Shown here piece after piece: positions 45,318 to 61,189 of a DNA stretch of 64,000 bases. The stretch lies in the NCBI RefSeq assembly GCF_000820045.1, contig NZ_CDBJ01000100.1:62001-126000 (forward strand), read 5' to 3'. The stretch comes from Aeromonas rivuli (GTDB lineage Bacteria; Pseudomonadota; Gammaproteobacteria; Enterobacterales; Aeromonadaceae). The notes beneath the pieces are model-generated. The model had not been told where the DNA came from and ran no database searches. It saw only the letters and a list, made by a program, of their open reading frames with translations. The position numbers and the translations under genes are program-made. The first letter of the stretch is position 1. The number at the start of each line of letters is the position of its first letter.

Positions 45318-46367
45318 TCAATCAAACAACACCGTGACTGGCAGTCCCTCGACCAGCAAACCCTGAGGCAGCTTTTCATCCAGTGACAAGGCGACTTTGA
45401 GTGTCGCCTTCTCCCCCTCGAACGGGGCGGCCAGTTGAGCCGGCAACTTGTCGGCCAGCTCTACCGGTCTGGCAACCCTGGCTGTAAAACGCTCTCCGCT
45501 TGGCAACTTGACGATCGCCTTGTGGCCCGTCTCCATCGAGGAGAGGTATTTTGGCAACACATACGCGATGACCAGGGGATCCTCATGCTTGGAGATCAGA
45601 GCAAGCGGTGCGCCCGAAAAGACCCAGTCACCCTCTTGCACCAGCACATCGGAAACTCTTCCCGTTGCCGGAGCCTGGGGCTGTTGCTGCCTTGCCGTGG
45701 CTTCCATCTCCGTTAGCTCCTGCTCCAGAGAGTGGCGAGCGCTGGCCAATGGCCCCGTCAGGTGATCCTCTTGGATCTGCAACTCTTGCAGCGTCTTTTC
45801 TGACCTGGCCTTCTGCAGAAAAATGCGCGATTGAGTCCAACTCAACAGAGAGCTGGCATACTCGGCACTGGAGACCAGTTTTTCCTTCCTGTAGTTCGCA
45901 TACTCCTTGTAAATCCCCTCCTGCTCACGGGTGCCCCGATCGGCGATGGCGATCTGCTCATCCAGGTTGTGCAATATCGCCTGCTCGGCACTCCCCTTGT
46001 CCAGTTCGATCGCTTTCAGCCGGGCCTTGCGCCCTTCGATGTTGGCCATGAGCGTCGGTGACTCGAACCGCATCAATGTATCCCCTTGCAAGACGGACTG
46101 GCCGGGAGACATATAGATGCTGCGGATGAAACCATCACCATTGGCGACCACCAGCTGGGGCTCGGTAGTGATGATGGCTGGCGCCTGGGTCAGCCACCAC
46201 TCTCGTCCCAGATACCAGAGCAGTATGATAACGGGGCTGAATGCCAGCAGCAGGATGAGATACCAGCGCAGCCGAAATGCGATGCGCTTGGCGGGGGCAT
46301 ACAACACCCGGATCCCTTCATCCGAGGTGGCATCCCGTTTCTTGGGGGGATTGAACGTGACTTTCAT
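45318..46367 (-). CDS. HlyD-like periplasmic adaptor of an exopolysaccharide operon
   Basis: A membrane-anchored adaptor (349 aa). A cytoplasmic start of about 30 residues precedes one span (LRWYLILLLAFSPVIILLWYLG). A biotinyl-lipoyl-like domain follows (VVANGDGFIRSIYMSPGQSVLQGDTLMRFE), then a coiled coil (about 95-210) and a C-terminal barrel (GRVSDVLVQEGDWVFSGAPLALISK). Alg44 and similar proteins join synthases to export machinery in this way. It overlaps the GT2 stop codon (TGATG), so the two are coupled. Confidence 0.85.
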   Translation of the reverse strand: MKVTFNPPKKRDATSDEGIRVLYAPAKRIAFRLRWYLILLLAFSPVIILLWYLGREWWLTQAPAIITTEPQLVVANGDGFIRSIYMSPGQSVLQGDTLMRFESPTLMANIEGRKARLKAIELDKGSAEQAILHNLDEQIAIADRGTREQEGIYKEYANYRKEKLVSSAEYASSLLSWTQSRIFLQKARSEKTLQELQIQEDHLTGPLASARHSLEQELTEMEATARQQQPQAPATGRVSDVLVQEGDWVFSGAPLALISKHEDPLVIAYVLPKYLSSMETGHKAIVKLPSGERFTARVARPVELADKLPAQLAAPFEGEKATLKVALSLDEKLPQGLLVEGLPVTVLFD

Positions 46368-47707
46368 CAGAATTTGTTTCCTCGTTTTAATACCCACCAA
46401 GGCGCCATACTGCTCTCTTCATGACCGCGTCGGAATATTTCATTGAGCAGAGCCACGGCGCACCACAGGCGCATCAGCAGGGTATAGACAGGGTACAGAC
46501 ACAACCATGGCAGCATGCGCAGATCCCTGTTGGGCCGCTCGGATATGGCGAGCAGAAATACCAGAAAATTGACCAGGGTGAGGAACAGATAGACCAGATA
46601 GAGACATAGCATCAAGGCTGTCACAAACTGGCCCGGATAGCTGAACACCAGCCACCAGCTGTATCCCATGACCAGCAGGGGCAGCACCACGTTTTGCGCC
46701 ACCCCATAGACCAGGGTGAACAGGAAGGTCTTCCATCCCAAGATGCGTGGCGTCAGCGACAACTTGTGCTTGCGCAGGTAAAGAAACAGCAGATCCCCAT
46801 CCCAGCGCAGACGCTGGTTTGCCAGAGTCATCAGATCCGCAGGTGCATCCGTGTGACCTATGGCCCTGGGGGCGAACCCTATCTTCAGGTTGGGGTGACG
46901 CTTGAGGTAGTGCTTGATCCGCACCGTCAGATCCAGATCCTCCGCCGTGTGGGTATCCCAACCACCAATCTGGCGCAGGAAGTCGCGGCGAAATGCCCCG
47001 AACGCCCCCGAAATATTATTGATCAGGTTCCATTCGCTCAGACCCGTCTTGCCTCCCTGCATGGAGATCATGTACTCGATCCCTTGCATGCGGGTGAGCA
47101 GGCCATCGCGCAAGTTACGCACCCTCAACGCACCGCCGACGGCCGGCACATCCGGATCATCGAAACAGGCCACCATCTCGTCGATCATGTTGTTGTCGAA
47201 GGAGGTGTCCCCGTCGGCATTCATCACTATCTCGCCGGTTGCCGCAGACAAGCCGGCATTGAGCGTCGATACCCGCCCACCACGCTGCCACTTGGGCAAC
47301 AGCACCAAGGTACGCGTCTCGCATCCCTGAAATGCGGCGATGCAGTTCAAGGCCGCCTGATAGGTATGAGCGTTGGCCTTGGCACCATCGATCACCGCGA
47401 TAATCTCCAGATGACCGCGATAAAGCTGCTCCTTGAGGGTCAGGATGGTGGACCGGATCGCCTCCCCCTCCCCATAGCAGGTGATGATGCAGGAGACCTT
47501 GGGACAACGACGTGACAACGGCAGATCGGAGGCTTTGGGCACCTGACGGGCAAACCATTTGAGGATCCCGGTCAGCGTCAATGCCATCAGGGGCACCTCC
47601 ATCAACAGCAGCATGGGCAGCAGCAGCAGGATCATCCTGGGTGAAAATTGCAGGCTACCCAGGATCTCGGTCAGGATGTAACGGATAGTACTCATCCACT
47701 CAGGCAT
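46367..47707 (-). CDS. Membrane GT2 polysaccharide synthase
   Basis: A processive-type family 2 glycosyltransferase (446 aa). N-terminal spans are at about 20-50. The GT-A core has CIITCYGEGEAI, DXD as NADGDT (Asp165 and Asp167), TAEDLDLT (254-261, the acceptor TED motif) and QRLRW (298-302). C-terminal spans lie from about 325 on. It resembles PgaC/NodC-like hexosamine synthases more than BcsA, since no PilZ domain is present. The sugar is unknown. The start at 47707 has GGAG eight bases upstream and overlaps the upstream gene by 8 bp. Confidence 0.9.
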   Translation of the reverse strand: MPEWMSTIRYILTEILGSLQFSPRMILLLLPMLLLMEVPLMALTLTGILKWFARQVPKASDLPLSRRCPKVSCIITCYGEGEAIRSTILTLKEQLYRGHLEIIAVIDGAKANAHTYQAALNCIAAFQGCETRTLVLLPKWQRGGRVSTLNAGLSAATGEIVMNADGDTSFDNNMIDEMVACFDDPDVPAVGGALRVRNLRDGLLTRMQGIEYMISMQGGKTGLSEWNLINNISGAFGAFRRDFLRQIGGWDTHTAEDLDLTVRIKHYLKRHPNLKIGFAPRAIGHTDAPADLMTLANQRLRWDGDLLFLYLRKHKLSLTPRILGWKTFLFTLVYGVAQNVVLPLLVMGYSWWLVFSYPGQFVTALMLCLYLVYLFLTLVNFLVFLLAISERPNRDLRMLPWLCLYPVYTLLMRLWCAVALLNEIFRRGHEESSMAPWWVLKRGNKF

Positions 47708-49043
47708 CCGGGAGGCTCCCATCCAACCAGTGGCTCAGCCAGACGCCAGTCTCTTCACCCAGGGCGGTAGGCAGCGACTGCACCTTCACATTCAGGGTCA
47801 GCGCATCCAGTCCTTCGACGTTGTTGAGCGCAAGGATCCGTCCTTGCAGGATCTGCCAATCCTCCACACTGGTGTGCGGCAACAGCAGCAACAGCTGATC
47901 GTCGGCATATTGGCACACCACATCGGTATCCCGGAACAGTGCCTGCAGACGGGCCAGCAAGGCAGCCAACCGCTGCTGGGTTTTCAACAGGCCCAACTTG
48001 GCGCGCAGCTCAGCAAGATGTTCGACCCGGATTGCCAGCAGGGTATGGTGACCGCCATGGCGCTGCAGCAGGCTGTTGCTCCACTGCAACAGCCAGGGGA
48101 AATGATCCATTGCCATGGGCGTCCCCCAGGTCAGGGGAATATGTAACTGCTGGGTACCCTCGCGGGCTATATGGCGAGCCAATTTGCCGATGCGATACTC
48201 ATAAATGGGCGCCACCACCAGATCGTCTGGCTTGTGGGCCTGGCCACATTCATGACATCGCGCCAGAACGGCGGCCTCCATAAAACGGGCATGGCAAGAG
48301 AGGCAGCGGTACTTCTCCAGTGGCCGATCATAGTCGACCCCGATGTGACGCAGGGTTGTCACGCACTTGGGACAACGCATGACACCCTGCTGCATGAAGG
48401 CATCCTGATCATCCACATGGCCACAGGTGAAACAGTGCACCGCTGGCTTGGCCTGAATGGCGATATGGGAGCACTCCGGGCACACATCGACGAAATTGAG
48501 ATGAGCCGAGTTGCAGCTGTTGCACAAGCGCACCCGATCAACCAGTTGCTCATGTTGCAACAACCGTTCGGAAACCAGTTGTGGTAAGGATGCCCCGGCA
48601 TCGGCTCCCAACAAGCAATCCAGCAGCGGATAGCTGTATCCCTGACGACAACCGGCCTGCCAGCGTGGCAGCAGGCGAAACCACGCACGGGGCCAGCTGT
48701 ACCAGGCCAGCTTTTCCATGTCATCCGGATGCTCACGCGGCGTCAGCAGCGCCAAACGTTCCAGCATGTCGGGCACCCGCTCATCCAGCTGTGGCATAAG
48801 ACCATCCGCCAGCATGGGAGAGAGCGGACTCTGCAATACGCAGAACACGGGATAGAGGTAGCGGGAAGGATCCCGGCGAACCGCCTGCAGCACCCGGTCT
48901 TGCTCATCGGCAGGCAGATTGAGCAGCAGCACAGGTTGCCGTGCCGGATCCCACAAGGAGAGATCGAGGAGAGACTGGGTAACACGATCCACCGTGCCTC
49001 CCAGCAGCGCAATCTGGCCGGGTTGTTCACTCATGATCATCAT
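47700..49043 (-). CDS. TackOD1-like zinc-ribbon protein with degenerate GGDEF domain
   Basis: A cytoplasmic protein of about 447 aa, first gene of the synthase operon. The N-terminal 170 residues have a receiver-like look (PVLLLNLPADEQDRV). Residues about 174-268 hold repeated CxxC pairs (LCNSCN, CPEC, CFTCGH, CPKC, CLSCH, CHECG), i.e. several zinc ribbons of TackOD1 type. The last 130 residues fit a GGDEF fold in which the signature is YADDQL instead of GGDEF, so cyclase activity is very unlikely. It may act as a c-di-GMP or protein-interaction module controlling the synthase. The ATG at 49043 has AGAGGG upstream. Confidence 0.75.
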   Translation of the reverse strand: MMIMSEQPGQIALLGGTVDRVTQSLLDLSLWDPARQPVLLLNLPADEQDRVLQAVRRDPSRYLYPVFCVLQSPLSPMLADGLMPQLDERVPDMLERLALLTPREHPDDMEKLAWYSWPRAWFRLLPRWQAGCRQGYSYPLLDCLLGADAGASLPQLVSERLLQHEQLVDRVRLCNSCNSAHLNFVDVCPECSHIAIQAKPAVHCFTCGHVDDQDAFMQQGVMRCPKCVTTLRHIGVDYDRPLEKYRCLSCHARFMEAAVLARCHECGQAHKPDDLVVAPIYEYRIGKLARHIAREGTQQLHIPLTWGTPMAMDHFPWLLQWSNSLLQRHGGHHTLLAIRVEHLAELRAKLGLLKTQQRLAALLARLQALFRDTDVVCQYADDQLLLLLPHTSVEDWQILQGRILALNNVEGLDALTLNVKVQSLPTALGEETGVWLSHWLDGSLPDA

Positions 49044-49163: not shown

Positions 49164-49260
49164 GGTGCAGCATCGGCAGGATTGTCAACGTTCTCGACAG
49201 ATAGCATGAAACAGGCGGACGCACTGGAAGGGTTGAGAGCTGACGCCATTTTCATGTGCG

Positions 49261-49324
49261 GCTCAGCCATCTCGAGGACAAGAGATCTGAAGCTTTCCGA
49301 ACCCGATTCACATCGGGGGTGGCG
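49261..49324 (-). ncRNA. Putative structured leader RNA, copy B
   Basis: It shares most of its sequence with 57062-57120. Read on the minus strand it has a closing GCCA/UGGC stem and a hairpin CGAU-GUGA-AUCG (plus-strand 49304-49315) extended by C-G pairs. The linker CGGAAAG is identical in both copies. A second hairpin UCUC/GAGA follows, with a variable loop. GUGA is a GNRA-type tetraloop only on this strand, which is the transcribed strand of the TackOD1-GT2-HlyD operon, about 220 nt upstream of its start. Confidence 0.6.
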
Positions 49325-49536
49325 AGGTGGCCGATTTTGAGTCTGGCTGGGAATTAGTCAATGGGACGGGGCAATCTCCCTGCCATGACCCCGGATAGAG
49401 AGAGGGGGTTTATTTTCAGGATGAAGAAATTGCCCCTCGCCACAATACAGTGCCATGACTGGGGATATTGGAGTTGCCCTCTCAAAATGCATCCCATTGA
49501 ACAAATAGTTTGTTATAACAATTAACAACTTACAGT
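49325..49536. other. Promoter-containing intergenic region before the TackOD1 operon
   Basis: No gene is seen. The AT-rich part at about 49495-49535 contains TATAAC-like and TTGTTA-like boxes on the minus strand. It is a plausible promoter for the operon, since the upstream ybcH transcript ends at the hairpin at 49541-49567. Confidence 0.4.
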
Positions 49537-49540
49537 AAAA

Positions 49541-49567
49541 GCATTGCGACAGGAATAGTCGCAATGC
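49541..49567 (-). terminator. Terminator of the wecB-nfr operon
   Basis: A perfect 10-bp stem, GCATTGCGAC (49541-49550) with GTCGCAATGC (49558-49567), has a 7-nt loop. On the minus strand TTTTACTG follows. It begins inside the stop-proximal region of ybcH. Confidence 0.8.
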
Positions 49568-49572
49568 CGATG

Positions 49573-50460
49573 TCAGCGCATGTCATCAAGGCCGGGCAGG
49601 TAGCGCAATGAGAAGAACCAGCGCTGGCTGCCGCAGCGAGTGGGGGCCGCCCAGAGTGCCCGTTGCTGTTGTTCAGGCAAAGGCTCGGCCTGAAAGGTAC
49701 CGCTCTCACCTTGCTGGACAAACAGCTCATGAACCAGACCCGCCACTCGCCCCTCACAGGGTTCGAGGGCACTCAGGTAGAGCCCTCGCTCTGCGGGGCT
49801 CAAGACCCCGGTACCACTGCCATCCTGCACCATCAGATCCACCCCCTGGTCTGCCAGGCGAGTCAGCAGTTCCCGATAAGCTTGCGGACTCATCTTGCCC
49901 GTAAAGAAGCTGCTGATATAAACGGGGGCTGTGCTTAGTTCGCGCAACCCCTTGACCGAGCGAGCCAGATGCTGAGCCAGCAACTGCTGGCGCTGGGGGT
50001 CGCGCCAATTGAGATCATCCAACTCGGCCGGCAGATACCAGCCGGCGATGCGATCCTTGCCAAGGCGCTCTTGCCACACCTTGGCCAGGGCCAGATTGCG
50101 GCTCTCCTGCTGCCCGAGATAACCCGTGAGCAGACCGCCACTCTGATCCTGACGTTGGAAGAACTCAGGGTCCGAGTAGAGCCCCAGGATCAGAGTTAAA
50201 CCTGCTGCCTGGGCACGCTGTAGCCGGGCCGCCAACCAGTCGCTCTGTTCAGGCTGCTCGAAGGCATCACCATAGCGGGTCCACTGCACCACCAGGGTAT
50301 CGAAGCCATGCTGTTTCACCTTGGCCACTATCTGATCCCAACGGGCTTCGCTCAGAGCGGCATCCCGCAGCTGGGGTTGATAGAAAATGCCCTGGCTGGC
50401 CTGGGCTGGCAGCACCATCCACATCAGGAGCAGCGTCATACCCTTTATCAATTGCCTCAT
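49573..50460 (-). CDS. ybcH: YbcH-like exported DUF4434 protein
   Basis: 295 aa with a signal peptide (MRQLIKGMTLLLMWMVLPAQA), then SQGIFYQPQLRDAALSEARWDQIVAKVKQHGFDTLVVQWT. This is a TIM-barrel-like DUF4434 start, with AGWYLPAELDDLNW in the middle. Its length and position after nfrA match E. coli ybcH, the last gene of the nfrB-nfrA-ybcH operon. A role in handling or cutting the exported polymer in the periplasm is plausible but unproven. The start overlaps the nfrA stop (TAATG). Confidence 0.82.
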   Translation of the reverse strand: MRQLIKGMTLLLMWMVLPAQASQGIFYQPQLRDAALSEARWDQIVAKVKQHGFDTLVVQWTRYGDAFEQPEQSDWLAARLQRAQAAGLTLILGLYSDPEFFQRQDQSGGLLTGYLGQQESRNLALAKVWQERLGKDRIAGWYLPAELDDLNWRDPQRQQLLAQHLARSVKGLRELSTAPVYISSFFTGKMSPQAYRELLTRLADQGVDLMVQDGSGTGVLSPAERGLYLSALEPCEGRVAGLVHELFVQQGESGTFQAEPLPEQQQRALWAAPTRCGSQRWFFSLRYLPGLDDMR

Positions 50461-53423
50461 TACCACCTCACTCCCATGGTCATCATCAGGGTGCCCTTGT
50501 CATACTCCTCGCCGGTCTCTAACTCTTTCAGGTCTTGATCACTCTTCAACCGCCGTTGGTACTCGAGCCCCAGACTCAGCTTGTGGGGCCAGGCGTCATA
50601 TGTCGTCTCCCCAAACCAGTGATTCCAGCGCACACCAACCCCGCCCATCAGCAGCTTGTAGTCATCAGAGCCCGAGGAGAACTCCTGGATACTGCCATCG
50701 TCATCTTTGACATAATCCTTGTCGGGACTCTTGTCATTCCAATACAGGCGCCCTTGCAGGTGAGCGTAAGGCTCGATGGTATCCCCCCAACGGATCTTGT
50801 GGTGATAGCTGAGCCGGTAGTCGGCCACCAGACTGGTCTGTTGTGAGCGCAGATAGCGGGCCCCATCCAGATAGAGATTCTGGGCCCACCAGCCGCTCTC
50901 CCCCAGATGCCATTCGTCGCTGTATTGACCCTCGTTGAGGAAGGAGGCACTGGCCCGGAGCAGGGTGTCATGCTCGCCCCCCTGGCTGCGGTTGAGCGGC
51001 AGCAACTCTTCGGCCGCCAGGAAGAGGGTCTGGTCACCCAGCGGCTTCCAGCGCAGCCCCACCCCCAGAGTGGGATCCCGGAAGTCGAGCGGATTACTAT
51101 TGCTCTCCTCTACATAGGTAACATTCTCCCCGCCATCCTCATCGGGGTGGTAGAGCCGCTGACTCTGGCTGCTGCCATAGAGACGGCCATAGACGGAGAG
51201 AATCTTGCCATTGCGAATGGGCTCCTCGCCGAGCCGGTACTCCACCTCGGTCTGGGCATAACTCTGGGCCACGCTGTTGGCGCCAATGCCGCTCACCGTA
51301 CCCTGACCGTTCCCCGTCCAGGCATCGAAACTCATGGTCCAGCGCCGGCCCAGATCCTCGTGCAACCGCCTCAGGTCATACCGCAGTTGCGCCGATTGCT
51401 CGCCGTCGATCGCCTTGGCCGCATAGTCCCGCGCCTTCTGGTTATGAGCCAGCGACTGGTTGATGTAGGTCAGCTGCTCGGCAAGTTCGGTGTCTCCGGG
51501 CCGGTAGAGCGGCTCCAGCCAGTCACTGGCTGCCTGCCGCTCATCGTTGTTGAGCAAGGCATAGCCATAGGCGAGCTGGTATTCCCTGTTGTCTGGTTCG
51601 AGTCGATTGGCCGCCCGCAACGCATCACGGGCCTGGGGCCTGTGGCCGAGCTGCTGCTGATGTTGGGCCAGCTCGGCATAGTCTTGCGCCGCGGGCGCCA
51701 GGGCGATGGCCCGACCCAGGCTGGCAATGGCTTGCTCATCTTGCTGGGTACGGGCCAGGGCGCGCCAGTAATCGGCATCCTGGGGCAAACCAGCCTGCTG
51801 GTACTGGTTCAGCCATTGCCGTGCCTGAGGCAGATCCCCTGCCTCCAGCGCCGAGCGAATCGCGGCCATCTGCTCCTGCTCATCCCGGGCCAGTGTCACT
51901 TGCTGCCAAGCCTGCAGCGCCGCATCAACATGGCGGTTTTCATAGGCTTGATAGGCAAGCTGACGCCTGTCCTGGGGCAAACCGAAGCTGGCCGCCCGGG
52001 CGAAGGCATATTCGGCCAGCCCTGGTTTACTCTGGCGATAACAACTACCGAGGGCACGCCAGCTGTCGGCATCATAATCAGCGCTGAGATCCCCCAGCAC
52101 CCGCACCACCCCATCGCACTGACCCGACTGGGCGAGCAGAGTCGCTTGCAGGCTGCGCAAGGCCGGGGTCGGCAGTGGGTCAGACAGGCGTGCGGGCAGT
52201 GCAGGCGCCCCAGCCTGCCCCTGCAGCAGGGTCAGACGCCTGATCAGGGTCTCTCGCCCGGCCTGGCTGGCGCCCCTATAGGGCCAGTAATCGATGAGCA
52301 GGGCACGACTCGCCGCCAGTTGACCCCGCTGTTGCAGCTGGTAGCTCACCCGCTCCAGGGCGGCCATGGGCTGGCGCGCCTCACGCACCAGTTTGCGCCC
52401 ATCTCGCGCCAATTTATCCCACTGCCGCTGATGCAGGGCCAGCTCAAACCCAAGTTCGGCGCTGGCTTGCCCTGGCGACTTGGCGAGCAGATGTTCCATC
52501 TCCTGCCAACGCCCCTCACGTCGCAGGACCGGCAGCATCAAGCCGATATAAAAATCCTGATTTTCAGTAAATTGCAGAGTCTGATCGCTCTTGAGGGTGC
52601 CGTTATTGGCGGCCAACTGCAGCCATTCACGCTCCTGGGCTGCACGCGCAAAATTCGGCGTGCGGGCCTGCTGATAATGGGTCAGCGCCTCTTTATTGCC
52701 CCCCTTGCCAAGGGCCAGGGCGATGGCAAGGTCGAGTTCGCCATCCTGCATGGGCAGCCGGCGACGCAGGGCGACGGCCTGCTCTACCTTCCCCTCGGTC
52801 AGCAGCATGGTGACCCACTGCTTCTGCTCACCCTGACCCAGCTTGCCTGCCCGATCGAGCCAGGCAAACTGCTCTGCGGCCAGAGGCCACTCTTGCTCCC
52901 CCAAGGCGCGTTGCAACAAGTCATGACGCAGACTCAACCCCTGGGGACTGTTGGCCAGTTCCGCCTCTTGCAGCGCAGCCGCCAATCCGTTCAAGTCATC
53001 GCCGAGCAAGGATCGCTCGGCACGGGCCACCTTGCATTCGAGCAGGCCACAGGCCGGATCCAGTGGATCCTTGCGCTGCAACCCCTCGGCGAAGGCGAGC
53101 AACTCGCTATCTTGCGGGGTGATGGCCAGCTGCTGCGCTATCACTGCCGCGGCTTGTTTATCCTGACCAAATTTTTCGTAGGCTCGCGCCAGGTAGAGGG
53201 CAATCACGGGATTCTTGGGCTGCAGCTTGCGGGCTTGCTCGAACTCGGCGATAGCACGCTCACGATGGCCCCGCTCCAGGGCAGAGAAGCCCTTCTGCAG
53301 ATGGGGATAGAGCACGAAGCGCTGATAGCTGCTGACATCGGGCCCCAGATCGTAGTCGACCTGGGCCGCCAAGGCCCCCTGACCCAGCAAGATGCCACAT
53401 AAGGCAAAGACAACAGGGCGCAT
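50460..53423 (-). CDS. nfrA: NfrA-like outer-membrane TPR/beta-barrel protein
   Basis: 987 aa, close to E. coli NfrA (phage N4 receptor, about 990 aa). It has a signal peptide (MRPVVFALCGILLGQGALA), then about 650 residues of TPR-like helical repeats (RAIAEFEQARKLQPKNPVIALYLARAYEKFG is the clearest). The C-terminal third has alternating beta strands ending in MTMGVRW, a typical outer-membrane barrel end. It would export the polysaccharide made by NfrB. Both ends overlap their neighbours (TGATG and TAATG), so the operon is tightly coupled. Confidence 0.9.
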   Translation of the reverse strand: MRPVVFALCGILLGQGALAAQVDYDLGPDVSSYQRFVLYPHLQKGFSALERGHRERAIAEFEQARKLQPKNPVIALYLARAYEKFGQDKQAAAVIAQQLAITPQDSELLAFAEGLQRKDPLDPACGLLECKVARAERSLLGDDLNGLAAALQEAELANSPQGLSLRHDLLQRALGEQEWPLAAEQFAWLDRAGKLGQGEQKQWVTMLLTEGKVEQAVALRRRLPMQDGELDLAIALALGKGGNKEALTHYQQARTPNFARAAQEREWLQLAANNGTLKSDQTLQFTENQDFYIGLMLPVLRREGRWQEMEHLLAKSPGQASAELGFELALHQRQWDKLARDGRKLVREARQPMAALERVSYQLQQRGQLAASRALLIDYWPYRGASQAGRETLIRRLTLLQGQAGAPALPARLSDPLPTPALRSLQATLLAQSGQCDGVVRVLGDLSADYDADSWRALGSCYRQSKPGLAEYAFARAASFGLPQDRRQLAYQAYENRHVDAALQAWQQVTLARDEQEQMAAIRSALEAGDLPQARQWLNQYQQAGLPQDADYWRALARTQQDEQAIASLGRAIALAPAAQDYAELAQHQQQLGHRPQARDALRAANRLEPDNREYQLAYGYALLNNDERQAASDWLEPLYRPGDTELAEQLTYINQSLAHNQKARDYAAKAIDGEQSAQLRYDLRRLHEDLGRRWTMSFDAWTGNGQGTVSGIGANSVAQSYAQTEVEYRLGEEPIRNGKILSVYGRLYGSSQSQRLYHPDEDGGENVTYVEESNSNPLDFRDPTLGVGLRWKPLGDQTLFLAAEELLPLNRSQGGEHDTLLRASASFLNEGQYSDEWHLGESGWWAQNLYLDGARYLRSQQTSLVADYRLSYHHKIRWGDTIEPYAHLQGRLYWNDKSPDKDYVKDDDGSIQEFSSGSDDYKLLMGGVGVRWNHWFGETTYDAWPHKLSLGLEYQRRLKSDQDLKELETGEEYDKGTLMMTMGVRW

Positions 53424-55672
53424 CAGACAACTTCCTTCTGGTAGTGACACAGTAACTGATCGTCGATGCCAGCCTCTCGCAGCAGCTCAGCCAGATCGTG
53501 CTGATACACCTGTTGCAAGGCCTGAGCCTGGCTCAACACCGGCTCGCTGATCACCTCTTGTTCGACCAGGAAATGGGCCAGGGTGGCCTCACTGCGCTCA
53601 TGCCGCAGCAACAGGGAGCGCAGCGCAGCCTCGTCGATGTGACCGAGGGAGATAAGGATCTCGGGCAGCATGACCTGGCTCGCCAGATAGCGGGTCCAGA
53701 TCTCGCCAAGCTGAGCGTCGTCAAGCAAGCCATCGGCCAGCACTTTTTGCAGCAACCGCTTAGGATCCTGACGCTGGCCACGCACGTACCAGCGCCGCAG
53801 CCCCACCGTCACCTCACCCTTGCAGGCGATCACATAGGAAACCGGAGACTTGAGCTTGCGGGACAGGGCGCCGAGGGAAACCGGGTCGAGATAGGTCTCG
53901 CAGGCGAGGATCAAGACACCGTGCTCGATACGCAGCGGCAAGACACTGTAGTGCACCGCAACGTTGGGGGAGACCTTCTGCAGCAGGCTTTTGGGCAGGG
54001 CATAGGCATCCACATGCTCCCAGGCCACCCCGCTCTGCTCGGCCACCCCGGCAGCCAGCTGCTCGCTGTCTATCCAACCCTGGTGTACCAAGCTGCTGCC
54101 CAGACGCAGGCCGGGTTCGCGGTTCAACAGCGCCTGTTCCAGCTGGACCTGGCTCAAGACTCCCTGGCTCACCAGTATCTGACCCAGGGGACGACGGGCG
54201 CGGTTCTCTTCTCCCAGGCTTGGGAAATCATGGGTGGTCTTGTCCCAGGCGACCCGGCGTGGGTCCCCCTGGGCGATGATCTGGGAGAGGGCACGCCAGT
54301 TCGCCATGAAGTTGATGATGTTGCCCCAAAACAGCCGGGGTAAGGACATCAGCCCCTGCATCAATCCGTAGTAGCGGGTCACAAAGATGAGGCGCTGCAA
54401 CATGCGATTCAGCATCAGGAACATATTGATCCAGAGCAGGGTCACCAGCCAGCTGTCGCCCTCGAAGATCGAGAGGAAATAGTAGGGATCGGGCGCCAGC
54501 CACTGATACAGGATCAGCGCCAGCAGCTGCAGCAGGATCAGGCTGGCGGAGAAGCTGAGGAAGTTGGTCAGCGCCCCCTTGCGATCCCGCCACAGGAAGT
54601 AGTTGAGCCGCCAGTTGCTGCTCCACTTGTGGGTTTTGAACCCCTGATAGACGATGCCGATGATCCAGCGAGACTTTTGGCGCACCGCCGTCTGGAAGGT
54701 ATCGGGAAAATATTCGCGCACGCAGATGACATTGGTGTCCCGCTCGTGCATCCCGAATCGCCACCGCTGATTCGGGGTGCTCCTGGCTTCCCGGATCACC
54801 GGGAAGCGGACGAACACCTCCTCCATTCCCTTCTCCTTGAGGCGAAAGCCGATGTCATAATCTTCGGTCAGGCTCTGCACATCGAAGGCGATACCGTCAC
54901 CATCTTCCAGCAGGGCTATGATGGCGCGGCGGCTAAAGCAGGTGCCGACCCCGGCACTCGGCACCTGCCCCGAGACGGCCTCACGCACCGGCACATCCTT
55001 GCTGTGCAGTTCCGCGAACTCGTCCAGATAGTGGAGGCTGGTGAAGTTGTACCAGGGACGCTCGAAGGGGTAGACGGGGATCTGGATCAGATCCTTGCGC
55101 TCCACCAGATAATTGAACAGCCGCAACTCCATGTCGGAGATGACATCCTCGGCATCGTGCAGGATAAAACCGGCAAACGACAGGTTGGCCTTGCGCTCAA
55201 ACTGGAAGATGGCATCGAGCACATTGTTGAGGCAATCCGCCTTGCTGGTCGGGCCGGGACGAGCACAGACCACCTTGTGCACGTTGGGGAAGCGGGCACA
55301 GACCTCATCCACGTCCTTCTGGGTATCGGGATCATTGGGATAGGTGCCGACGAAAATCTGGTAGTTTTCGTAATCAAAGCGCGTCGCGGCCAGCTCAGCC
55401 ATCTGGCCGATGACGCCGGTTTCGTGCCAGGCAGGCACCATGATGGCCAGCGGCTGCTCCTCCCGCTCGTAGAGTGCCTGATACTCCAGCCGATCGTGGC
55501 GACGATAGACAGTCAAGCGGCGCCAGCTGGTGCGCAGCCAGTAGATGATGTCGATGAAGAGATCATCCACCCCGCTTATCAACATGGCGACAGCCACCAC
55601 TATGGCGATCAGTTTCAGACCATAGAGATAGGTGGCAAAACCATCAACCAACCAAAATTCCGGCATCATCAT
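53423..55672 (-). CDS. nfrB: NfrB-like c-di-GMP-responsive glycosyltransferase
   Basis: An inner-membrane GT2 synthase (749 aa, E. coli NfrB about 745). TM1 lies at 16-35. The GT core has AIMVPAWHE, HDAED (172-176), LTEDYD (268-273) and the processive QKSRW (332-336). Spans lie at about 370-430. From about 494 there is a MshEN/GspE-N region with the tandem motifs RPLGQILVSQGVLSQVQLEQAL and LRLGSSLVHQGWIDSEQL, the kind that binds c-di-GMP, and a second such segment follows later. In E. coli NfrB makes a ManNAc-containing polymer when c-di-GMP is bound. wecB just upstream would supply UDP-ManNAc. Confidence 0.92.
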   Translation of the reverse strand: MMMPEFWLVDGFATYLYGLKLIAIVVAVAMLISGVDDLFIDIIYWLRTSWRRLTVYRRHDRLEYQALYEREEQPLAIMVPAWHETGVIGQMAELAATRFDYENYQIFVGTYPNDPDTQKDVDEVCARFPNVHKVVCARPGPTSKADCLNNVLDAIFQFERKANLSFAGFILHDAEDVISDMELRLFNYLVERKDLIQIPVYPFERPWYNFTSLHYLDEFAELHSKDVPVREAVSGQVPSAGVGTCFSRRAIIALLEDGDGIAFDVQSLTEDYDIGFRLKEKGMEEVFVRFPVIREARSTPNQRWRFGMHERDTNVICVREYFPDTFQTAVRQKSRWIIGIVYQGFKTHKWSSNWRLNYFLWRDRKGALTNFLSFSASLILLQLLALILYQWLAPDPYYFLSIFEGDSWLVTLLWINMFLMLNRMLQRLIFVTRYYGLMQGLMSLPRLFWGNIINFMANWRALSQIIAQGDPRRVAWDKTTHDFPSLGEENRARRPLGQILVSQGVLSQVQLEQALLNREPGLRLGSSLVHQGWIDSEQLAAGVAEQSGVAWEHVDAYALPKSLLQKVSPNVAVHYSVLPLRIEHGVLILACETYLDPVSLGALSRKLKSPVSYVIACKGEVTVGLRRWYVRGQRQDPKRLLQKVLADGLLDDAQLGEIWTRYLASQVMLPEILISLGHIDEAALRSLLLRHERSEATLAHFLVEQEVISEPVLSQAQALQQVYQHDLAELLREAGIDDQLLCHYQKEVV

Positions 55673-56754
55673 TACCCCAGCAAGGCGTCAGCCATGATGG
55701 CGACGATACGTGCACAGGCCTGACCATCCCCAAACGGATTCGCCATGGCACGGGGGGCAAAATCCCCGGCCTGCCACAACTCGGTCACCCGCTTGACGAT
55801 CCGCTCCTCGTCCGTGCCCATCAGCTCGGCATAACCCGACGCCACGGCCTCGGGCCGCTCGGTCTCTTCGCGCAATACCAGCAAGGGGACCCCGAAGGTG
55901 GGCGCCTCTTCCTGCAGGCCGCCAGAATCCGTCATCACCAGCCAGGCATCGGCAATGGCCTGCTGCATGGCCAGGTAATCGAGCGGCTCGGTCAGGGTGA
56001 CATTGGGCAAGTGCCCGAGCAGGGGATAGACCACCTGCTTGATGACGGGATTGAGATGCACGGGGAAGAGCACTTGCATCTCGGGATTGGCTTGGGCGAG
56101 ACGCGCGATGGCACGGCAAATCCCGGCCACTTCATCACCCCAGTTTTCTCGCCTGTGCACCGTGACCAGCAGATGGCCGGGCTGAGGTTTGTGCCGGTTC
56201 AGGCCATGACGCTCTGCGGCCCACAGCTGGGCATCGATGACGGTGTTGCCGGTCACATGTACCCGCTCTGCCGGTACTTGCTCGGCCAACAGGCAGGCGC
56301 TGGCCCCCTCGGTCGGAGCCAGGTGCAGACTCGCGATGCGGCCAATCATCTGACGTAGCCCCTCTTCGGGGAAAGGCCTGTCGAGGCGGTAGGTGCGCAG
56401 TCCCGCCTCCACGTGGGCCACGGGAACCTGATGGTAGAAACCGGTCAAGGCGCCGAGGAAGGCGCTCTCGGTATCCCCTTGTACTATCACCATGTCCCAT
56501 TGCGCTTGCGCCATCAGGGCCTCAAGCTGACCACGGCAGCCCTGGCTGAATTCGAACAGGCTGGCCCCCTGGCGGGTCAAGCTCCAATCCGGCGTGATAT
56601 CAAAGCAATCGAGGAGCTGAGTCGCCATGCTGTCGTGCTGGCCGGTGTGAACCCAGCGCACATCGGCCCAGGGTGCCTGCTTGAGCCCATGATAGAGGGG
56701 GGCCATCTTGATTATTTCCGGGCGAGTACCCGATACCATCATGATCTTTTTCAT
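55672..56754 (-). CDS. wecB: UDP-N-acetylglucosamine 2-epimerase
   Basis: This enzyme interconverts UDP-GlcNAc and UDP-ManNAc (360 aa). Family blocks are MMVSGTRPEIIKMAPL, VIVQGDTESAFLGAL, VAHVEAGLRTYRLDRPFPEEGLRQMI, VTVHRRENWG and LVMTDSGGLQEEAPTFGVPLLVLREETERPEA. It overlaps nfrB by one base (TAATG), so it is the first gene of a four-gene operon. In E. coli wecB lies in the ECA cluster instead. This copy may be a dedicated paralogue. Confidence 0.95.
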   Translation of the reverse strand: MKKIMMVSGTRPEIIKMAPLYHGLKQAPWADVRWVHTGQHDSMATQLLDCFDITPDWSLTRQGASLFEFSQGCRGQLEALMAQAQWDMVIVQGDTESAFLGALTGFYHQVPVAHVEAGLRTYRLDRPFPEEGLRQMIGRIASLHLAPTEGASACLLAEQVPAERVHVTGNTVIDAQLWAAERHGLNRHKPQPGHLLVTVHRRENWGDEVAGICRAIARLAQANPEMQVLFPVHLNPVIKQVVYPLLGHLPNVTLTEPLDYLAMQQAIADAWLVMTDSGGLQEEAPTFGVPLLVLREETERPEAVASGYAELMGTDEERIVKRVTELWQAGDFAPRAMANPFGDGQACARIVAIMADALLG

Positions 56755-57061
56755 CGCAACGAACTCCGTTCATAGACTGACATCACAGCAGGAGTCTAGA
56801 CGACCAACATGTCATTGGTTCGTACTCACTGCCGGATAATATCAATAGATTACAAGTCTCTAGGGAGGGTCAAGCAAGTCAATGGGGCTTACTCATCCGA
56901 CGGATGCTCGCCCGATAGATATCCAGATGCCATGAGTCAGGCGGGTACTTGTCTCTACAACAGCACCCTGTTCGCACGACCCTTGCGGAGTCGGCCATCA
57001 TCATGAATGGATATGGAACGAGATATAGCGGCAGATCGTCGAACCCTCGTCACAGGCAGCC
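56755..57061 (-). other. Long 5' leader of the wecB-nfr operon
   Basis: About 300 nt between the structured element (57062-57120) and the wecB ATG have no good gene on either strand. A leader of this length without a coding function is unusual for a bacterial operon and fits RNA-based regulation. Confidence 0.5.
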
Positions 57062-57120
57062 CAGCCATCTCGAGAGGGAGATCTGTGACTTTCCGAGCCC
57101 GGTTCACACCGAGGGTGGCG
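57062..57120 (-). ncRNA. Putative structured leader RNA, copy A
   Basis: This is the second copy of the element at 49261-49324. On the minus strand a GCCA/UGGC stem (plus-strand 57116-57119 with 57064-57067) closes a hairpin CGGU-GUGA-ACCG (57100-57111), the shared linker CGGAAAG and a UCUC/GAGA hairpin (57068-57081). Compared with copy B the CGGU/ACCG stem has become CGAU/AUCG, a compensatory change that keeps pairing. A further GUCACAG/CUGUGAC pairing in this copy (57050s with 57080s) could form an alternative structure. Confidence 0.6.
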
Positions 57121-59625: not shown

Positions 59626-59712
59626 ACAGTCATTTGGCAAACCGGTCGAAAGGCCAGGACGCAAAGCCTCCGGTCCCGGGATCAAGCACGGGATAGCGGG
59701 GTTGCAGCAGGT
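59626..59712 (+). ncRNA. Cyclic-di-GMP-I (GEMM-I) riboswitch
   Basis: The aptamer hallmarks occur in order. GGCAAACC (59636-59643) comes first, then a GAAA tetraloop hairpin (59648-59651). GGACGCAAAGCC (59657-59668) and TCCGG are the tetraloop receptor region. A P3 hairpin follows (TCCCG with CGGGA, 59674-59693), and then TAGCGGGGTTGC (59694-59705). It lies about 55 nt before the LPMO start. GEMM-I elements sit upstream of gbpA in Vibrio cholerae too. A small hairpin (CGGGG-GCT-CCCCG, 59716-59728) follows, but no U-run terminator, so control may be translational. Confidence 0.92.
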
Positions 59713-59767: not shown

Positions 59768-61189
59768 ATGGCAGTGAATCAACCACTTCATCGTCTTGCC
59801 GTCATCACCGCCCTGTTGGCCAGTGGTGGCGCCCTTGCCCACGGCTACATCAGCAGCCCGGAAGCCCGCAACACCCTTTGCAAGAACGGAGGCAACATAG
59901 GCTGCGGCGCCATCCAGTGGGAACCCCAGAGCCTGGAAGCGCCGTCCGGCTTCCCGAACGGCGGGCCCGCCGATGGCGACATAGCCTCGGCTGGCCATGC
60001 CCAGTTCGCCGAGTTGAATGCCCAGACCAGCGATCGCTGGACCAAGCGCACAGTGAGTGCCGGTGCCATCGATATCAGCTGGACCTTTACCGCCAACCAC
60101 GTCACCCGCAACTGGCGCTACTACCTCACCAGGCAAGATTGGGATCCCAATCAGCCCATCAGCCGCAGTAGCTTCGATCTGACCCCCTTCTGTGTCATTG
60201 ACGGCGGCATGGTACAACCCCCCAAGCAGATGACCCACAGCTGTACCCTGCCAGCTCGCACCGGCTATCAGCTGATCTTGGGGGTCTGGGAGGTGGGGGA
60301 TACCCCCAATAGCTTCTACAACCTGATCGATGCCCGCTTCCAGGATGGCGAGCTGCCGCCGCTGGCCTGGAGCCAGAGCGGTACCATCTACCCCTCGGTG
60401 GATCTCAAGGCCGGAGACAGAGCCATGACCCGGGTGTTCGATGCCAACGGCGAGCGCCCCGAGTTGCAGACTGTGCTCACCGTCGCCAGTGACGAGCAGG
60501 GGCTCAAAAATAACTGGGCCCAGGCGCTGGCCAGCAAGATAAACGCCGAGCAGAGCGAGATCCGTGCCGGCCAACCGGGTAGCGGTGACAGCTTCAACCC
60601 CGTCTATGGCCAGAACCCCGTCTACCTGAAGGCAGGCAGTGGCCTGGCCCGGGTCGAGATCCAGCTTGAGCAGCAACCTGCCCCCGTGGCCGACAGCCTG
60701 GTGGTGAGTGGTCTCGCCGATAGCTACCCGCTCGATGGCGGCAACCTCAAGCTCGACTTCACCCTGGCAGTGCAGGGGGACTTGAGTGTAACGGCCACCC
60801 TCTATGACCATGGCGGCGCCGCCAAGGGTCAGGTCAAGACCGACATCAAGGACGCCAGCCAGAGCCTGAGCCTGGCCCTGACCGGCCTCAGCGCCGGTCA
60901 TCACCAGCTGGTGCTCGCAGGCACCCCCAAAGGAGGCGGCGCCCTGTTGCAACAGACCCATGACCTGATGCTTCAGGATCCTGTCAGTGGCGACTACCAG
61001 TATGTTTTCCCGGCCTCTCTCTCCTCTTACAAGGGTGGGGTCAAGGTGCTGCAGCCCAAAGATGGCAAGATTTACCAATGCAAACCCTTCCCCGCCGAAG
61101 GTTGGTGCAGCCAGTGGAGCAGCAACGCCACTCACTATGAGCCTGGGGTAGGCAGCCATTGGCAGGAGGCCTGGTTGCTGGTGCAGTGA
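59768..61189 (+). CDS. gbpA: GbpA-like AA10 lytic polysaccharide monooxygenase
   Basis: A secreted copper enzyme and chitin-binding colonisation factor (473 aa). Signal cleavage after ALA exposes His25 (HGYISSP), the first copper ligand. The second is His111 (TANHVTRNWRYY). The AA10 domain runs to about residue 210, two middle domains follow, and a C-terminal chitin-binding module (about 425-473) ends YQCKPFPAEGWC...GSHWQEAW. The domain plan matches V. cholerae GbpA. The riboswitch upstream puts it under c-di-GMP control. The terminator at 61207-61236 closes the unit. Confidence 0.93.
   Translation: MAVNQPLHRLAVITALLASGGALAHGYISSPEARNTLCKNGGNIGCGAIQWEPQSLEAPSGFPNGGPADGDIASAGHAQFAELNAQTSDRWTKRTVSAGAIDISWTFTANHVTRNWRYYLTRQDWDPNQPISRSSFDLTPFCVIDGGMVQPPKQMTHSCTLPARTGYQLILGVWEVGDTPNSFYNLIDARFQDGELPPLAWSQSGTIYPSVDLKAGDRAMTRVFDANGERPELQTVLTVASDEQGLKNNWAQALASKINAEQSEIRAGQPGSGDSFNPVYGQNPVYLKAGSGLARVEIQLEQQPAPVADSLVVSGLADSYPLDGGNLKLDFTLAVQGDLSVTATLYDHGGAAKGQVKTDIKDASQSLSLALTGLSAGHHQLVLAGTPKGGGALLQQTHDLMLQDPVSGDYQYVFPASLSSYKGGVKVLQPKDGKIYQCKPFPAEGWCSQWSSNATHYEPGVGSHWQEAWLLVQ

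Follow-up and report, generated by a model that had tools for sequence, protein, structure and literature searches.

The repeat that occurs twice in the window, by which we mean the whole 64,000-nt stretch of Aeromonas rivuli DNA analyzed here, is a divergent relative of the class I cyclic di-GMP (c-di-GMP) riboswitch, and its ligand is probably c-di-GMP. On sequence evidence, we further consider it likely that the element is a riboswitch derived from class I c-di-GMP (GEMM) aptamers that does without the canonical P1 stem. The aptamers concerned are as follows, R1 being a covariance model built from homologues of the element:

49258-49323 (G20 at 49323 to C92 at 49258), minus strand: copy B, class-I-like aptamer core (RF03167, 33.8 bits; R1, 94.2 bits; covariation)
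57056-57119 (G20 at 57119 to C92 at 57056), minus strand: copy A, class-I-like aptamer core (RF03167, RF01051, R1)
59626-59709, plus strand: canonical c-di-GMP-I riboswitch before gbpA at 59768-61189 (RF01051, 60 bits; GbpA domains)

An earlier note on this DNA had placed a repeat of about 60 nt at 49261-49324 and 57062-57120, both on the minus strand, and these positions were borne out. Copy B as a query retrieved copy A from its own genome (E 5.4e-9); the sole other match there (L003; E 2.2e-4, 32 nt) covers flank only, without the aptamer. Searching the window with R1 returned copy B at 49252-49328 with 94.2 bits, copy A with 84.5 bits, and a third, weaker match at 59631-59711 on the plus strand (30.8 bits, E 2.1e-6), which is the canonical riboswitch before gbpA; with E of at least 0.7, five more matches are no better than chance. 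This riboswitch (59626-59709) and the gbpA-like LPMO gene after it are divergent from the exopolysaccharide cassettes.

The note had also stated that the repeat matches no riboswitch consensus. This was wrong, since in a lax Rfam scan both copies match the c-di-GMP-I clan. RF03167 (c-di-GMP-I-GGC) is the best-scoring Rfam model for each, with 33.8 bits (E 4.3e-6) for copy B and 42.7 bits (E 1.2e-8) for copy A, matched along the full model, each below the gathering cut-off of 59 bits. Copy A also reaches 37.1 bits against RF01051, above the cut-off of 35 bits, and copy B is absent from the RF01051 matches at E<=0.1 in its own genome. A window scan at default thresholds reports neither copy. Membership in RF03167 was rejected on the scores (33.8 and 42.7 against 59) and on A47, present in 20 of 20 elements versus G in the model consensus. 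No phage C4-type family is among the three Rfam matches at E<=10 around copy B. As an existing Rfam family explains the element, a finding that the note itself had named as refuting, the proposal of a new riboswitch class fails; covariation and gene context do support the proposal of a structured leader, probably a riboswitch. Among the papers listed by our literature searches, which covered few subscription papers, none could be recognized as dealing with this leader element.

Of 37 genomes of the genus, 16 contain the element according to a 64-nt search; with R1, these 16 yield 22 copies, and 7 of the 38 remaining family genomes have weaker matches, for a total of 23 of 75. The RF01051 cut-off is reached by 3 of these 22 copies, and 19 are missed at Rfam cut-offs; class I regulons in Aeromonas are therefore probably under-counted. 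A one-pattern scan of GTDB representatives gave 15 stretches, all from Aeromonas; the pattern was made from these copies and is hence blind to distant ones, and records close to the genome of the window may be missing from its result. At E<=5e-4, R1 matched 32 of 394 order genomes, including 9 from the genus, and 16 of 369 class genomes, including the window's own; two order-level matches (G085 and G329) were left out of the loci read.

Beyond the genus, 35 of 41 loci carry a C21-G46 pair, swapped relative to the usual G-C, which is kept in 6 (L129, L131, L142, L144, L145, and L148). Eighteen of the 20 loci given to Rfam have a clan match over a cut-off, at 19 places, the two without being L143 and L147; of the C21-G46 relatives outside the genus, 17 of 19 scanned pass a clan cut-off. 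One of them, L100, from another genus of the family, passes that of RF03167. Several of these loci have features of their own. Genome G755 carries a pair of class I aptamers with C21-G46, spaced by about 1.2 kb, in L137 (275-357 and 1503-1585, minus strand) and L149 (1501-1580, minus strand). The L149 aptamer, with a di-haem cytochrome c peroxidase-like gene downstream, has A instead of G20, the change known from cGAMP-type GEMM riboswitches. In G651, four class-I-like aptamers (L143, L150, L151, and L152, near 1501) have GCCT for GCCA and a non-GNRA P2 loop, and that of L143 precedes a collagen-repeat protein. C21-G46 aptamers in L116, L118, L119, and L132 precede RTX calcium-binding repeat proteins; no count rests on the aptamer anchoring of L116 or L117.

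The earlier observation that the copies lie upstream of exopolysaccharide operons on the sense strand extends to all 22 copies in the genus. The cassette that follows is wecB-nfrB-nfrA-DUF4434 in 3 cases, TackOD1-GT2-HlyD in 8, and pga in 11. The window holds the first two of these:

55672-56754, minus strand: wecB, UDP-GlcNAc 2-epimerase, first gene after copy A (TIGR00236, 385.5 bits against a cut-off of 210)
53423-55672, minus strand: nfrB, GT2 plus MshEN (NF008411, c-di-GMP-activated glycosyltransferase, 1198.1 bits against a cut-off of 1170)
50460-53450, minus strand: nfrA-like TPR outer-membrane protein (NfrA_C, 148.5 bits against a cut-off of 25)
49573-50466, minus strand: DUF4434 protein, encoded at the end of the nfr cassette (domain scan)
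49540-49568, minus strand: terminator-like hairpin after the DUF4434 gene and before copy B (1 found against 0.5 expected by shuffling)
47700-49043, minus strand: gene directly following copy B, encoding TackOD1 and a GGDEF domain that looks degenerate (Pfam)
46367-47722, minus strand: GT2 glycosyltransferase (Pfam; PgaC_IcaA, 133.8 bits, below the cut-off of 422)
45318-46400, minus strand: HlyD-type periplasmic adaptor (domain scan)

Against PRK09782 of NCBIfam, the nfrA-like protein scores 565.5 bits, below the cut-off of 1223. In the translated TackOD1 protein, ADDQL stands where GGDEF is expected (placed by eye). This protein, encoded right after a c-di-GMP-type aptamer, also has zinc-ribbon-like cysteine pairs. 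Where the M3 peptidase gene and copy A adjoin, a strong GC-rich hairpin with a T tail was seen by eye in the intervening DNA (window 57420-57397, minus strand); it does not appear in the terminator scan. The pga genes were identified with curated models in one genome, where PgaA, PgaB, and PgaC score over the cut-off and PgaD below it, and with Pfam in a second. A PgaB match lies beside the element in 11 of 11 pga genomes, in two pieces in G025. PgaC-PgaD is activated by c-di-GMP. NfrB is c-di-GMP-activated in Escherichia coli (PMC8669469, PMC8669472), and the word riboswitch occurs in the main text of neither paper.

Element and cassettes largely occur together. Among the 37 genomes of the genus, every one with NfrB (3) or PgaB (11) carries the element, as do 7 of the 8 with the TackOD1 protein; conversely, 20 of the 21 element-free genomes lack all three marker proteins. 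The exception, G031, has a complete TackOD1-GT2-HlyD cassette (L191, 4207-7926) without the element at another chromosomal site. Its leader does not resemble the one with copy B, no R1 match there is better than E 4.6, and the peptidase and gbpA are absent from the 15 kb read. These two neighbors are both present in 15 of 17 element-bearing stretches, with the peptidase only in L166 and neither in L156. At the peptidase-side site of three element-free genomes (L188-L190), the window's cassette proteins are absent, and R1 matches do not exceed 12.8 bits (E 0.14). In L165, from G025, the TackOD1 gene falls into three tblastn pieces and the aptamer, L108, lacks C44, a pattern that fits joint decay.

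The class I ligand bases G20, A47, A48, and C92 are kept in the element. We took the key positions from PMC3764141, mapped those of the GNRA receptor onto the element by hand, and counted pairs in 20 of the 22 genus copies, leaving out L108 and L112. G20, C22, A23, C44, G45, A47, A48, A49, and C92 (column 85) are invariant in all 20. So is the interhelical C44-G83 pair, C44 being lost in L108, outside that count. The GNRA loop is GUGA or GCGA, and pairs matching its receptor, C59-G79 and U60-A78, are found in 20 of 20.

Other class positions have changed. The 21-46 pair is C-G in 20 of 20, swapped relative to canonical aptamers: all 58 pattern matches among 60 canonical Aeromonas loci have G-C, some places having been fetched twice. 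Position 25 is C in 16 copies and T in 4, and position 42 is T in 19 and C in 1, where the class has A25 and G42, both highly conserved (PMC3764141). A17 and A18 occur in 1 and 3 of 21 distinct Aeromonas elements, against 37 of 37 distinct canonical Aeromonas aptamers for both and 25 and 26 of 29 other C21-G46 aptamers. A similar difference is seen for P1: the mean helix score of 4.14 in the element is reached by 155 of 200 shuffles, and those of the canonical Aeromonas aptamers (4.84) and the other C21-G46 aptamers (5.60) by 0 of 200 each. In these comparisons, duplicates were merged (including L125, L127, and L015), and the canonical loci L048, L049, L052, and L053, as well as L137, had no match. 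Against this, at least one helix of 4 bp or more occurs in similar fractions of the three groups (0.76, 0.66, and 0.62). One copy, L009, shows a helix of 10 bp at a greater distance, around the -10-like hexamer described below. The score of a shifted P1 beside G20 is reached by 0, 7, and 129 of 300 shuffles at three settings, and is thus significant at one of them only. One of the three class stems, canonical P1, has apparently been lost.

A promoter-like site lies close to the aptamer:

49334-49361, minus strand: promoter-like pair TTGACT-16-CAAAAT, 10 nt upstream of G20 in copy B (1 found against 0.6 expected; geometry conserved)

With 0.6 expected, a single such site does not by itself exceed chance, so the evidence lies in the conservation of the geometry. 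TTGACT, a 16-nt spacer, and a -10-like hexamer ending 10 nt before G20 are present in 18 of 19 TackOD1/pga copies, the one outside being the degenerate L112; the three wecB copies lack this arrangement. The hexamer is CARAAT in 14 copies and CACTAT, CACAAT, or TGTATT in 4, and the L008 site was read by eye, our script having favored an equally scoring one. Part of this conservation may be plain common descent. The usual spacing between a -10 hexamer and the start would put the transcript start 3-5 nt before G20, which would leave no room for a canonical P1. Tentatively, the element may be a natural class I c-di-GMP aptamer without canonical P1, transcribed from a start within J1/2 that lies 3-5 nt ahead of G20, a ligand-contacting base, and with its pocket closed in a new way; the accompanying changes at 21-46, 24/25, and 42/43 may shift affinity or ligand choice. 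The pocket could be closed by a tiny shifted CCUY/RAGG helix or by the 5' end of the RNA itself.

The same changes raise the question of whether the ligand is still c-di-GMP. The aptamer could have shifted to another cyclic dinucleotide or a related ligand, as some GEMM aptamers did for c-AMP-GMP (3',3'-cGAMP), variant riboswitches for which have been described (PMC7266159). The 21-46 swap, the replacement of A25 and G42, and the loss of A17-A18 and P1 are all adjacent to the pocket; G21 and C46 are listed as ligand-contacting (PMC9049102, PMC7288161), and PMC7288161 adds C17 and A18. Yet all 20 copies counted keep G20, C92, and A47, the swap also occurs in aptamers that pass Rfam c-di-GMP-I cut-offs (the 17 of 19 above), and the regulated genes include the c-di-GMP-activated NfrB, all of which makes an altered ligand unlikely. 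Slightly less likely again is a repurposed aptamer that binds no ligand and serves as a structured 5' end, for stability or for protein or RNA binding. The absence of P1 and of the J1/2 A-run would agree with it, as would L112, whose aptamer is degenerate (bases lost) while its genes read through, but a plain stability hairpin needs none of the unpaired pocket bases G20, A47-A49, and C92, which are invariant in 20 of 20. Counted against the reading as a P1-less class I derivative are the score of copy B far under the RF03167 cut-off and its absence from the RF01051 matches, the changed A25 and G42, the missing A17-A18 and P1, L108, L112, G031, and the search for an expression platform, which found none. 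Given the changed class positions, the undetectable P1, the copy B score, L112, and G031, an altered ligand and repurposing keep about a fifth of our belief.

A riboswitch class unrelated to the known ones, closed by the GCCA/UGGC stem of the earlier note, is very improbable. Over 20 homologues, the class I P2/P3 structure is paired in 99.5% of cells, and slid control structures in 20-50%. Its paired percentage, changed cells, and covariation score are reached by 0 of 500 shuffles, although kinship among sequences inflates such covariation scores. Its 6 pairs with two-sided changes are equalled by 7 of 500, and the number of further pair types, reached by 345 of 500, lends the fold no support. 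The same homologues uphold the GUGA (GNRA) hairpin, the UCUC/GAGA hairpin, and the invariant CGGAAA linker that had been read from the two copies, and their alignment confirms the AU-to-GC compensatory change in the GUGA stem. The closing stem did not hold: in 3 and 5 of the 20 homologues its inner pairs cannot form, and covariation is absent. Its bases instead fit P2, P3, and the pocket of the class I aptamer. The structure as a whole, 97.1% paired, does beat shuffles on three of five measures, because it has the GUGA hairpin in common with class I. We therefore rejected this fold over its closing stem; the clan matches (E 1.2e-8 and 4.3e-6) and the passing of the RF03167 cut-off by the related C21-G46 aptamer L100 also argue against an unrelated class. 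Equally remote is a dispersed mobile repeat without regulatory function, suggested by two copies in one genome and by cassettes that differ between species at one site, and rejected on the downstream genes and orientation of the copies, with 22 of 22 in sense before exopolysaccharide cassettes and the pocket bases invariant.

For the class I-derived riboswitch, the likely mode of action can be outlined. P2 and P3 would pack side by side through the GNRA loop/receptor contact and the C44-G83 pair, and c-di-GMP would be held by G20, an intercalated A47, and C92. These intact bases, together with the gene context, point to c-di-GMP as the ligand. With one copy heading each cassette, c-di-GMP would act twice, activating the synthase protein, as shown for NfrB in E. 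coli, and setting, probably upward, how strongly the operon is expressed. We infer c-di-GMP sensing, the ON direction, and a start 3-5 nt before G20; ON regulation is probable by analogy with the Vibrio cholerae riboswitch Vc1 and because NfrB needs c-di-GMP. The distance from G20 to the start codon is 186-369 nt in the 22 leaders. As to the expression platform, there is no conserved intrinsic terminator, 18 of the 22 leaders having no T-run of the kind searched for, which makes translational control or Rho more likely. Several TackOD1 leaders have, just before the start codon, a stretch that could pair with the Shine-Dalgarno sequence (seen by eye). Leader folding gave inconsistent aptamer and RBS probabilities, and we therefore claim no expression platform.

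If the aptamer is naturally without P1, it would offer a test of what this stem is for, given that in the class I structure the ligand stacks with G14-C93, a pair of P1 (PMC3764141). The locus would also tie c-di-GMP to two layers of one pathway, the NfrB synthase protein and, probably, the operon mRNA. The exopolysaccharide cassettes concerned are interchangeable at one Aeromonas site.

Compared with known systems, the element shares with RF01051 (GEMM-I) P2 and P3, the GNRA loop, the C59-G79/U60-A78 receptor, C44-G83, G20, A47-A49, and C92, as well as a biofilm/surface gene context. It differs in having C-G at 21-46, in the replacement of A24-A25 and G42-A43, in the loss of most A17-A18, and in having no canonical P1 above chance. 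From RF03167 it differs by A47, where that consensus has a G after C46, presumably the G to which "GGC" in c-di-GMP-I-GGC refers. The other C21-G46 aptamers of Gammaproteobacteria (for example L114, L121, L134, and L100) have the same swapped 21-46 pair and, by eye, mostly GUGA or GCGA loops; in contrast to the element, they mostly have A17-A18, have P1 above chance, and, again by eye, usually have A25/G42. Proteins downstream of such aptamers (15 scanned) have RTX repeats in 4 cases and PEP-CTERM in 3. In the 3',3'-cGAMP (GEMM-Ib) riboswitch, G20 is changed to A. The element differs in keeping G20 in 20 of 20; a G20A mutant binds cGAMP (PMC7288161). Vc1, located before gbpA in V. cholerae, has the class residues, interacts with c-di-GMP in vitro, and raises expression when isolated, and its chromosomal point mutations are reported to have inconsistent effects (PMC4744006). 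While the interaction of Vc1 with c-di-GMP has been shown in vitro and that of the Aeromonas element is putative, the two have the messenger in common, and in the window locus, too, a class I copy precedes gbpA.
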